A stretch of DNA of 64,000 bases, from the NCBI RefSeq assembly GCF_014280235.1, contig NZ_CP047940.1, positions 2,418,001 to 2,482,000 on the forward strand, in the 5' to 3' direction. Position 1 is the stretch's first letter, and each line of letters starts with the position of its first letter. Positions 55,879 through 58,892 of this stretch are shown here, one piece after another. Source of the DNA: Cyanobium sp. NS01. GTDB lineage: Bacteria > Cyanobacteriota > Cyanobacteriia > PCC-6307 > Cyanobiaceae. A model generated the notes under the pieces. It worked only from the letters and a program-made list of their open reading frames with translations, did not search any database and was not told the origin of the DNA. The translations under genes were made by a program, and so were the position numbers.

Positions 55879-55987
55879 GGGGCGCGGGCCGGAGGGGGAG
55901 GGAGGTCAGTCTGGCCGATGGGCCTGCAGGAACTCGACAACGGCACAGCCCTTAGCCTCAGGATCTGCTCACCGGCCGGGCCGAATC

Positions 55988-56497
55988 ATGTCCCTCTCCA
56001 TGCATGCGGCCGCGGTGCCGCCCCTGCAGCGCACCCTCACCAACCTGGCGGCGGTGCTGGCCAAGGCGGAGGCGCACGCCGAGGCCGGCGGCATCGATCC
56101 CGCCGTGCTGCTGGCCAGCCGCCTCTACCCAGACATGTTCCCCCTGACCCGGCAGGTGCAGATCGCCGCCGACATCGCCCGCCGCGGGGTGGCCCGCCTC
56201 GCCGGCGTGGAGGCCGTCGCCGTGGCCGATGACGAGACCACCTTTGCGCAGTTGATCGAGCGCCTCGAGGCCGCCGTCAACGAGCTGGGCGGCTACGCCC
56301 CCAACCAGCTGGAGGACAGCGCCGAGCGGGAGGTGAGCGTGCCGATCGGCCGCGGGCAGAGCATCACCATGATCGGCTGGCCATTCCTCTCCGGCTTCGT
56401 GCTGCCCAACGTCTACTTCCACACCACCACCGCCTATGGGATCCTGCGCCACAACGGCGTGGTGCTGGGCAAGCGCGATTTCCTGGGGGAGCCCTGA
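55988..56497 (+). CDS. DUF1993 family protein
   Basis: A 169-residue soluble protein starting MSLSMHAAAVPPLQRTL. The pattern RLYPDMFPLTRQVQIAADIARRG, TFAQLIERLEAAVNEL and FVLPNVYFHTTTAYGILRHNG defines DUF1993, a DinB-like four-helix family of unknown function; the conserved His in FHTTTAY and LRHNG could bind a metal. It is divergent from chlD (109 bases apart), and its stop overlaps the putative CTG start of folK. Confidence 0.85.
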   Translation: MSLSMHAAAVPPLQRTLTNLAAVLAKAEAHAEAGGIDPAVLLASRLYPDMFPLTRQVQIAADIARRGVARLAGVEAVAVADDETTFAQLIERLEAAVNELGGYAPNQLEDSAEREVSVPIGRGQSITMIGWPFLSGFVLPNVYFHTTTAYGILRHNGVVLGKRDFLGEP

Positions 56498-57132
56498 ACG
56501 CAGGCGGGGTTAATCCAGCCGCTGCCAGCACCGCGGCGCCCGGGCCTTCCACGGCCATCGCCCTGGGGGCCAACCTGGGCGACCCGCTGGCCACCCTCAC
56601 GGCGGTACGGCCGCTGCTGAGCCAGGTGCTGCAGCACTGGGCCGGGGCGGATCCGGCGGTGGGCTCCTGGCGGCTGCGCTGGTCGCCGCTGTTCCGCACC
56701 GCTCCCGTGGGGGGGCCAGCCGGCCAGCCGCCCTATCTCAATGCGGTGCTGCTGGCCAGCGGCCCTGGCGACGAAGGCGCGGCGGGGGCGCCGAGCGGGG
56801 GCGATCCGCTGCCGCTGTTGCTGGCCCTGCAGAGCCTGGAGGCGGCCTTCGGACGGCAGCGGCTGCAGCCCTGGGGGCCGCGCAGCCTCGATCTCGATCT
56901 GCTCTGGTGCGGCGGCCATCGGCGCCAGAGCGCCGCCCTGTGGCTGCCCCATCCGCTCTACCTGGAGCGCACCTTCGTGCTGGCGCCGTTGGCGGCCCTG
57001 GCACCGGAGCTGGTGCCGCCAGATGCCGGGCGCCGGGTGGACGAGCTGCTGGCCGAGCTGCTCGCTGCTGGGCAAGATGACGGCAGCCCGCCACCGCAAC
57101 GGCTGGCCCCCCAGGTGGGCTGGCCGGAGTGA
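56494..57132 (+). CDS. folK: 2-amino-4-hydroxy-6-hydroxymethyldihydropteridine pyrophosphokinase
   Basis: HPPK of folate synthesis. Conserved parts are TAIALGANLGDPLATL (bases 56551 onward), FRTAPVGGPAGQPPYLNAVL, WGPRSLDLDLLW with the catalytic Asp pair, and LPHPLYLERTFVLAPL. The essential N-terminal GANLGD strand lies upstream of the first canonical start (GTG 56626). No ATG, GTG or TTG is in frame between it and 56401. CTG 56494, three bases after GGGGGA and overlapping the DUF1993 stop, is taken as start (212 residues). An insert near residue 90 is longer than in E. coli HPPK. Confidence 0.85.
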   Translation: MNAGGVNPAAASTAAPGPSTAIALGANLGDPLATLTAVRPLLSQVLQHWAGADPAVGSWRLRWSPLFRTAPVGGPAGQPPYLNAVLLASGPGDEGAAGAPSGGDPLPLLLALQSLEAAFGRQRLQPWGPRSLDLDLLWCGGHRRQSAALWLPHPLYLERTFVLAPLAALAPELVPPDAGRRVDELLAELLAAGQDDGSPPPQRLAPQVGWPE

Positions 57133-58892
57133 GGCTGGCCCGGGTGCCACGGACGCGGGTGATGCGGAAGACGGCCAGGGCAGCGACGGCCCTCTTCAAT
57201 GGAGCAACCGTTCCCGCTGCCCCGATCACCAGCTCCCATCCACCCAGCCGCTGGCGCAGCGCCCTGGCCATCGGCCTGGTGATCACGGCCCTGGCCCTGT
57301 TCGGCGGCAATCTGGGCGACAACGAGGCCGGCAAGCTGGCCCTGGCCCGACAGGCCATCGAACCCGGCTGGATCCCCACGGACTGGTACCTGAACAACAG
57401 CCAGGGCTACCAGTGGCTGTTCCAGCAGTTGAGCGGCCGGATTGTGATCCTGCTGGGCTTCGTGCCGGGCTCGCTGCTGGTGCGGCTGCTGGGCTACGGG
57501 GCCTGGGCCTGGGCCCTGGCGGGCCTCACCGTGCCGCTTGGGCTGACGCCGGCGCTGGCGGCCCTGGCGGCGGCTCTGTTCAGCCTGCAGCAGGGGGTGG
57601 TGGCTGCCGAGTGGATGGTGGGCAGCGCCGAGCCGAAAACCTTCGCCTACGCCGCCGTGCTGCTGGCCTACGCGGCCTGGCGTGAGCGGCGCTGGTGGCG
57701 CTGCGGGCTCTACAGCGGCCTGGCCTGCTCCCTCCACCTGCTGGTGGGGAGCTTCGCGGTGGTGTCGCTGGCGGGGATGGCGCTGGCCAGGCTGGTGCTG
57801 GAGACCAGAACCAGGCGCGAGCCGGGCTGGGCTGGACTGGGCCGCTGGAGCGCCGGGGCGGTGCTGATGGGGCTGCCGGCGGGCTTGGCCGTGGCCCAGA
57901 AGCTGCTGGCGCCCAGCGTCACAGCGACCCCTCACAGCAGCGCCTCCCTGCCCTCCGCGGGCTGGATCTACGTGGTGCTGCGCAATCCCCACCACCTGCT
58001 GCCGAGCGATTGGTCGGCGGGCGACTGGGCCCGCATCGCTCTGCTGCTGGGGCTGTTCGTGCTGACGGCCGTGGCGGCTGGCGGCTGGTGGCCAGGGCGG
58101 TGGCGCCCGCGTTGGCAGGCGCGTTGGCAGGGGCCATTGCAGCCAAACGATCCGTGCCAGAGGGCCAGCCGTGACCTCGCTCTCTGGGTGGCGATGAGCT
58201 GGCCCCTGGCGCTGCTGGGGTTGCTGGCCAGCCGCCTCCCCGCCGCCCCAAAGCACGCCCTGCTCAGCCTCTACCTCTTCCGCCTGGCCGACACGCTGCT
58301 GATGCTGGGCCTGTGGCTGCTGCTGGCCGCCGTCCTGGTCAGAGCCGTGCGCCGCTGGGGGCCGGGCCGGAAAGCCCAGCGGCGGCTGCAGGCGGCACTG
58401 GTGGTAGTGGTTCTGCTGATCAGCCTGGGGGGCCTGGCCCGCGAGCTGCCCACGGCGGCGGCGGGCTGGCCGCGCCAGTTCGTGGCCAGCCTGGAGCAGG
58501 CGGAGCTGTACGCCTGGATCCGGGGCCACACCCCCAGGAGCGCTCTGGTGCTGGCACCACCTTCCGGCTTTGAGGACCTCTCCCTGCAGACGGGCCGGCC
58601 CGGCTTCGTGCAGTTCAAGCAGATCCCCACTTCCGCCCTGGCCCTTCAGACCTGGTTTGAACGCCTCACGGCCCTCGCCGGCGGCGATCGCGGGGTGTGG
58701 CAAGGCCCGGGCGGCTGGCAGGCCCGCGATCGGCTGCTGGCGGCCTACGGCGCCTTGCCGCCGGCCGCCCTGGGCCGCCTGGCCTACGACCAGGGCGCCA
58801 GCGTGCTGATCACCAGCTCCCAACACAGCGGGCCCGAAGGCTGGGCGCCGGCCTACCGCGACGGGCGCTGGACGGCCTGGCAACAACCCTGA
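57129..58892 (+). CDS. Multi-pass membrane protein of unknown function (possibly DUF6798)
   Basis: A 587-residue protein with about 10-12 hydrophobic segments between residues 44 and 440, a periplasmic-type stretch after DNEAGKLALARQAIEPGWIP, and a C-terminal soluble region of about 140 residues (LEQAELYAWIRGHTPRSALV onward). The layout resembles GT-C-like glycosyltransferases and the DUF6798 family of bacterial membrane proteins; this is a fold-level guess. GTG 57129 overlaps folK stop; ATG 57162 is an alternative. Confidence 0.65.
   Translation: MRLARVPRTRVMRKTARAATALFNGATVPAAPITSSHPPSRWRSALAIGLVITALALFGGNLGDNEAGKLALARQAIEPGWIPTDWYLNNSQGYQWLFQQLSGRIVILLGFVPGSLLVRLLGYGAWAWALAGLTVPLGLTPALAALAAALFSLQQGVVAAEWMVGSAEPKTFAYAAVLLAYAAWRERRWWRCGLYSGLACSLHLLVGSFAVVSLAGMALARLVLETRTRREPGWAGLGRWSAGAVLMGLPAGLAVAQKLLAPSVTATPHSSASLPSAGWIYVVLRNPHHLLPSDWSAGDWARIALLLGLFVLTAVAAGGWWPGRWRPRWQARWQGPLQPNDPCQRASRDLALWVAMSWPLALLGLLASRLPAAPKHALLSLYLFRLADTLLMLGLWLLLAAVLVRAVRRWGPGRKAQRRLQAALVVVVLLISLGGLARELPTAAAGWPRQFVASLEQAELYAWIRGHTPRSALVLAPPSGFEDLSLQTGRPGFVQFKQIPTSALALQTWFERLTALAGGDRGVWQGPGGWQARDRLLAAYGALPPAALGRLAYDQGASVLITSSQHSGPEGWAPAYRDGRWTAWQQP

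Follow-up and report, generated by a model that had tools for sequence, protein, structure and literature searches.

The folK gene of Cyanobium sp. NS01 raises a simple question, namely from which codon its translation can begin. In the window, by which we mean the whole stretch of 64,000 nucleotides that was analysed, the folK frame is open on the + strand from 56233 to 57132, and no in-frame ATG, GTG or TTG occurs between 56233 and the GTG at 56626. The initial annotation had described this lack from 56401 onward, and we confirmed it and could extend it upstream. The features considered here are collected in Table 1, and codons ahead of the domain are counted backwards from the GAN of the conserved motif.

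Table 1 Features of the folK locus in the window.
Feature	Positions	Strand	Remarks
Degenerate copy of the chlD-side element, consensus GCCAGTCTCGCTGATCAG	55905..55919	+	Beside chlD; DUF1993 between it and folK
DUF1993 gene, upstream partner of folK	55988..56497	+	ATG 55988, TGA 56495-56497; PF09351 E 3.6e-54
GGGGGAG, weak Shine-Dalgarno-like stretch	56485..56491	+	GGAG 56488-56491, 2 nt before CTG; not conserved
CTG, proposed folK start	56494..56496	+	4-nt CTGA overlap with DUF1993 stop; homologous G009 junction
folK from CTG, 212 aa	56494..57132	+	HPPK domain, residues 22-171
FolK first strand STAIALGA, residues 19-26	56548..56571	+	AlphaFold2 model mb681cfb6fe53, N-termini of solved HPPKs
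Rival near-cognate codons ACG 56551 and ATC 56557	56551..56559	+	ATC in frame at -3, ACG at -5
First in-frame standard start of folK, GTG	56626..56628	+	Inside the domain

An intact FolK and its missing standard start

Judged by domain score and conserved residues, the protein encoded in this frame is FolK (HPPK). The CTG-initiated form reaches 85.1 bits against TIGR01498 (cut-off 54.1) and matches PF01288 with an E value of 6.4e-23 (81.8 against 25.7) over positions 2-116 of the 116-position profile. The window genome (G000) is complete, with one contig of 2,748,087 bases, and a search of it gave a single, intact folK match. The conserved classes G[AS]N and WGPR.LDLD and the H-P residues are all kept, and G25, N27, G128, R130, D133, D135 and H153 are present and invariant among 32 aligned sequences, the invariance of G25, N27, R130 and D135 being partly imposed by the motif used to pick the folK loci. 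The part upstream of 56626 is also conserved, with A21, L24, G25 and N27 invariant in the 32 sequences (G25 and N27 are search-motif residues). Among G000 and its two congeners G002 and G009, the dN/dS ratios of folK were 0.40 (G000-G002), 0.52 (G000-G009) and 0.54 (the third pair) by NG86, and 0.14 (G000-G009) and 0.25 (G002-G009) by YN00. These values below 1 indicate that folK is under constraint in the trio.

The fold limits where a start can lie. The AlphaFold2 model, built with 32 aligned sequences, has a mean pLDDT of 87.4, with block means of 55 for residues 1-10 and 70 for residues 11-20, and, of the 27 distinct sequences with a solved HPPK that were matched, 18 have alignments beginning at query residue 21 or 22 and at chain residues 5-9, and the others match only further in. 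As strand 1 is predicted to comprise residues 19-26, starting at ATC 56557 or CTG 56563 would disrupt the fold, and in this model the whole strand probably requires a start ahead of 56548. The GANLGD strand reported from 56563 is present, but 56563 belongs to the preceding Leu and the first G of the motif is encoded from 56566.

A scan of 56440-56640 on the + strand in all frames gave neither ATG nor TTG, and the GTG codons found there were those at 56459, 56462 and 56626 alone. Because neither ATG nor TTG occurs there in any + frame, a one-base indel near the gene would uncover no nearby start, and an assembly indel hiding an ordinary folK start was thereby ruled out; a base substitution, the other form of sequencing error, is weighed below. 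No standard start was found at a domain-preserving position of folK, and we consider it very likely that the window folK starts at a codon other than AUG, GUG or UUG.

The DUF1993-folK junction and its relatives

The CTG at 56494 overlaps the stop of the DUF1993 gene as CTGA (56494-56497), and GGGGGA lies three bases ahead of it (56485-56490), both as the initial annotation had stated. As a ribosome-binding site this stretch is weak: its GGAG is too close to the CTG, and both G002 and G009 read GGCGAG at the site and thus do not have GGAG. Shine-Dalgarno support was therefore dropped as main evidence for the CTG. The 16S 3' end (...GGATCACCTCCTAAC) has the usual CCTCCT, an ordinary anti-SD. 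A relaxed initiator tRNA as the explanation of CUG use was ruled out, since an initiator tRNA-Met of ordinary type (GGG-CTCATAA-CCC, pattern search) was found in five of five genomes, and RNA folding around the CTG gave an ordinary energy (z -0.54), which indicates no special structure at the junction, with the CUG base-paired in the predicted structure. The coding log-likelihood ratio of the stretch from CTG to the strand was -4.2, against +9.3 (SD 5.2) for gene segments and means of -11.9 and -15.2 for gene segments read out of frame. This poor coding potential counts against translation of the CTG-encoded extension, and it may be tempered by the atypical composition that unstructured N-terminal tails can have.

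Among 13 genomes of the genus that were searched, DUF1993 is present in three (G000, G002 and G009), and in all three it lies directly before folK with the junction sequence GAGCCCTGA. The DUF1993 stop lies 68, 47 and 17 nt from GAN, respectively, with the frame unchanged, and the CTG is in the folK frame in all three junctions despite gap differences of 21 and 30 nt. Particularly, the folK of G009 (locus L003), a separately sequenced species, is also without ATG, GTG or TTG. Its CTGA is directly followed by GCACCGCCATCGCCCTG, which places the CTG at codon -7, where folK has GTG in G002 (L002) and in L032, and TTG in L036; the window has CCT at codon -7, and its CTG 56494 is codon -24. The alignment of the G009 CTG with GTG-7 and TTG-7 appears to be the best evidence for CTG as a start in this group. 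With this comparison, a non-AUG folK start is well supported.

Two features of the junction carry less weight. First, we examined 30 DUF1993 loci, in 21 of which no folK was found within 400 nt downstream, and 17 of these 21 folK-less genes also end in CTGA. The overlap is therefore not evidence by itself, because it is inherited from the usual DUF1993 C-terminus, and conservation of CTGA was rejected as evidence of CTG use. Second, DUF1993 occurs in six genomes of the genus g50 (G061, G126, G147, G178, G201 and G212), each time in the same pair with folK, which there has an ATG in frame 14 nt past the DUF1993 stop. The register from CTGA to folK is the same there as in the window (gaps of 68 and 83 nt), so that the shared register, which holds where an ATG is present and used, is weak rather than strong evidence for the CTG. 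A transfer of folK and DUF1993 from g50 is unsupported, since the folK genes of G000, G002 and G009 group in a single clade (SH-aLRT 95), which stands apart from g50 in the tree. Also in g50, the folK frame of L100 and L101 (G164 and G190) is closed by a stop at -18 and holds no ATG, GTG or TTG before GTG-3, and their start candidates apart from GTG-3 are CTG-15 and ATC-12 only.

The sequence on the chlD side gives some indication of the history of the gene. In many relatives a conserved element, GTGnnnGCCAGTCTCGCTGATCAG, stands beside the divergent chlD and next to the GTG of folK. This arrangement was found in seven of eight other parsed loci of the window's genus (L005, L006 and L008-L012, not L007), and the GTG by the element is the probable folK start in most of the congeners examined. 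G009, like the window, has a degenerate element copy beside chlD with DUF1993 between the element and folK, and the stretch examined in G002 contains neither chlD nor the element. Because DUF1993 stands between the element and folK in G000 and G009, the old 5' end of folK appears to have been lost in this lineage, and the gene would now use a codon taken from the DUF1993 stop; the order of these events is what we infer from the arrangement. The element is conserved at the nucleotide level in L005, L006, L008-L012, L156, L161, L162 and others, may fall inside folK in some genomes and upstream of the start in others, and is possibly a regulatory element.

Proposed coupled re-initiation and rival readings

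We propose that folK is translated from CUG 56494 by coupled re-initiation, which we regard as the probable reading. Ribosomes would terminate DUF1993 translation at UGA 56495-56497, and the post-termination ribosomes would step one base back and re-initiate on the overlapping CUG. The ordinary initiator tRNA would decode this codon as fMet, and the FolK product would have about 17 unstructured residues ahead of its first strand. If CTG is the start, the two genes overlap by 4 nt, one of the two overlaps (1 or 4 nt) taken here as the mark of a coupled pair. According to PMC10666635, the 4-nt overlap is the favoured geometry of re-initiation, 4 or 1 nt being the commonest. The proposal of re-initiation at this CTG, already made in the initial annotation, fits this geometry; the use of CUG 56494 and the coupling itself are what we infer from the sequence, the overlap deriving from the DUF1993 C-terminus. 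Further along, the folK stop and the GTG that begins the following ORF (57129-58892) share the letters GTGA (57129-57132), possibly a second 4-nt overlap in a row.

Similar systems have been described. Termination-reinitiation at ATGA in bacteria and archaea (PMC6728339, PMC10666635) shares the -4 nt overlap, the strand and the adjacency with the window, whereas the shared codon here is CTG, the SD is weak and unconserved, and the coupling is putative. According to PMC6728339, overlapping gene pairs make up less than 10% in cyanobacteria, an SD motif precedes about 40% of such starts, and ample use of SD motifs is said to be made in cyanobacterial re-initiation. In PMC9845219, reporters with a CUG start were silent both in E. 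coli and in chloroplasts, and CUG starts are cited as 0.024% of ORFs in 69 bacterial genomes. The silent CUG reporters, together with the ordinary initiator tRNA and anti-SD, are points against a CUG start. The annotated bacterial CUG starts cited there and the window codon both differ from AUG at the first base; here, the CUG is placed by the GTG and TTG of relatives and by the lack of other candidates.

The rival that survives best, although we consider it unlikely, is that folK initiates at ACG 56551 or ATC 56557, with the DUF1993-proximal CTG unused and 56494-56550 acting as a spacer. The poor coding potential of 56494-56556 fits this reading, as does the aligned GTG-7 start of G002, which is close to the domain, but the window has CCT at -7, and in the model strand 1 would lose three residues from its beginning with a start at ATC-3 and a single residue with a start at ACG-5. 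Distance matters as well, since both codons are more than 50 nt from the DUF1993 stop. Measured against the distance dependence reported in PMC10666635, this is a long way for re-initiation: coupling in six tested gene pairs fell strongly with distance and was almost abolished at about 20 nt, and E. coli pairs lost 80-100% of coupling at 38 nt, with variable effects at shorter distances, although an older study cited there found little effect of distance, and coupling over long spacers is also cited there.

A base substitution error in the assembly, for example in CTG 56494 or GTT 56509, could mask an ordinary start, and a single base would be enough; however, G009 was separately sequenced and shows the same lack, and an error of the indel type cannot explain the missing start, as no start is near in any frame. 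We consider such an error distinctly improbable. A DUF1993-FolK fusion by -1 ribosomal frameshifting near the DUF1993 end is more doubtful still. The folK frame is the -1 frame of DUF1993 and is open upstream, and a run of five G is present at 56485-56489, but the run is broken in G002 and G009 (CTCGGCGAG), no slippery heptamer was seen at the junction on inspection by eye, and the same gene pair has a separate folK ATG in the six g50 genomes. Just as improbable is that folK has decayed, or starts at GTG 56626, the first standard start in frame, without the first strand and the GANLGD segment, in view of the conserved upstream part, the sole folK match in G000 and the dN/dS below 1.

Apparently recurrent unusual folK starts and what they may mean

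We surveyed 185 distinct folK upstream regions, which were high-scoring matches of two queries within one family together with some more distant relatives and are neither a random nor an exhaustive sample (the two queries matched 351 and 350 of 400 family genomes; loci where the motif missed folK, 11 and 4, and duplicates were left out). Eleven of the 185 are without ATG, GTG or TTG at codons -5 to -45 before GAN (L001, L003, L015, L100, L101, L197, L202, L204, L218, L242 and L256). At codon -16, the 65 loci of small-genome relatives, which are probably Prochlorococcus-like and many of which come from incomplete assemblies of many contigs, have ATG in 48, ATA in seven, ATC in two, ATT in two and another codon in six, and none has GTG or TTG. 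Nine of the 11 ATA/ATC/ATT loci (L014, L015, L195, L197, L202, L204, L218, L240 and L242), whose sister genomes have ATG, show no standard start within -5 to -24; in L014, L195 and L240 one lies further upstream than -24, and in L255 and L257 one lies closer to the domain. Changes between usual and unusual starts number at least 11 on a tree of 94 rows, and changes between ATG and ATA/ATC/ATT at least five on a tree of 59 labelled rows, many branches of both being weakly supported. In L274 (G247), on a contig of 3,136 bases, the folK start region is apparently shifted by one base (TCGCATGACTTATGC), probably by an assembly error.

Control genes gave a different picture. An ATG start of infC was found in all 17 genomes with a match among 20 searched, and an in-frame ATG is available to chlD in all 11 loci examined (L256 and 10 of the 11 ATA/ATC/ATT folK loci), in nine of them at a common position and in L242 and L257 at other positions. 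In these controls, a general use of ATA starts throughout the genomes of the relatives was thus not seen. The lack of a usual start in 11 of 185 regions, the ATA/ATC/ATT codons in 11 of 65 and the ATG kept by infC and chlD suggest that non-canonical initiation looks recurrent at folK. In folP, one of 15 loci (L315) has no standard start ahead of the domain, and folK may therefore not be unique. The folP of L315 (G013) has no ATG, GTG or TTG between the upstream stops and the domain, and ATT ATC follows the stops. In infC of all 17 genomes (L286-L302), the ATG stands immediately after a TGA in the same frame (TGAATG).

A further parallel is the infC gene of E. coli, which starts at AUU under IF3 control, unlike the TGAATG-type ATG of infC in the relatives. 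Both infC and folK are conserved single-copy genes with a non-canonical start, and the E. coli codon is of the same class as the putative ATA/ATC/ATT folK starts of the small-genome relatives, whereas the window codon is CTG. Unlike infC, folK encodes no translation factor, and we know of no autoregulatory loop for it; infC itself has ATG in the 17 genomes checked here. According to PMC4611024, AUU, AUC and AUA are non-canonical starts discriminated against by IF3. Non-canonical starts and 4-nt overlaps are each already known. A literature search on folK starts or cyanobacterial non-AUG starts gave nothing on folK starts among the matches listed, and neither the combination of CTG with a 4-nt overlap nor repeated non-canonical folK starts at one position is described among them.

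We also considered, as a rather unlikely idea, that the weak folK starts (AUA/AUC/AUU in the small-genome relatives, CUG in the window) form a folate-responsive valve. When the supply of folate and one-carbon units falls, initiation would become less stringent, the unusual start would be used more, and FolK would rise and restore folate. E. coli with a folD mutation, in which one-carbon supply is disturbed, selects its initiator tRNA less strictly (PMC7949028), and an effect of this type reaching start codons would be an extrapolation from that case. The absence of GTG and TTG at codon -16, although these are ordinary replacements, possibly fits a folate-sensing start, and AT-rich mutational bias may explain part of it. 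If true, folK would have a start-codon circuit of the infC type, but in metabolism, where the gene feeds initiator formylation and rRNA methylation, and the pattern would be a regulatory one in which folate supply is tied to initiation fidelity.

In conclusion, the folK locus has consequences for annotation as well as for the study of initiation. Gene finders consider mainly ATG, GTG and TTG, so that genes like the window folK would be truncated or called broken. As folK has apparently changed more than once to AUA, AUC, AUU or CUG, it offers natural material on which start codons cyanobacterial ribosomes tolerate, and the window folK can be a test case for whether a 4-nt overlap may rescue a codon as poor as CUG.
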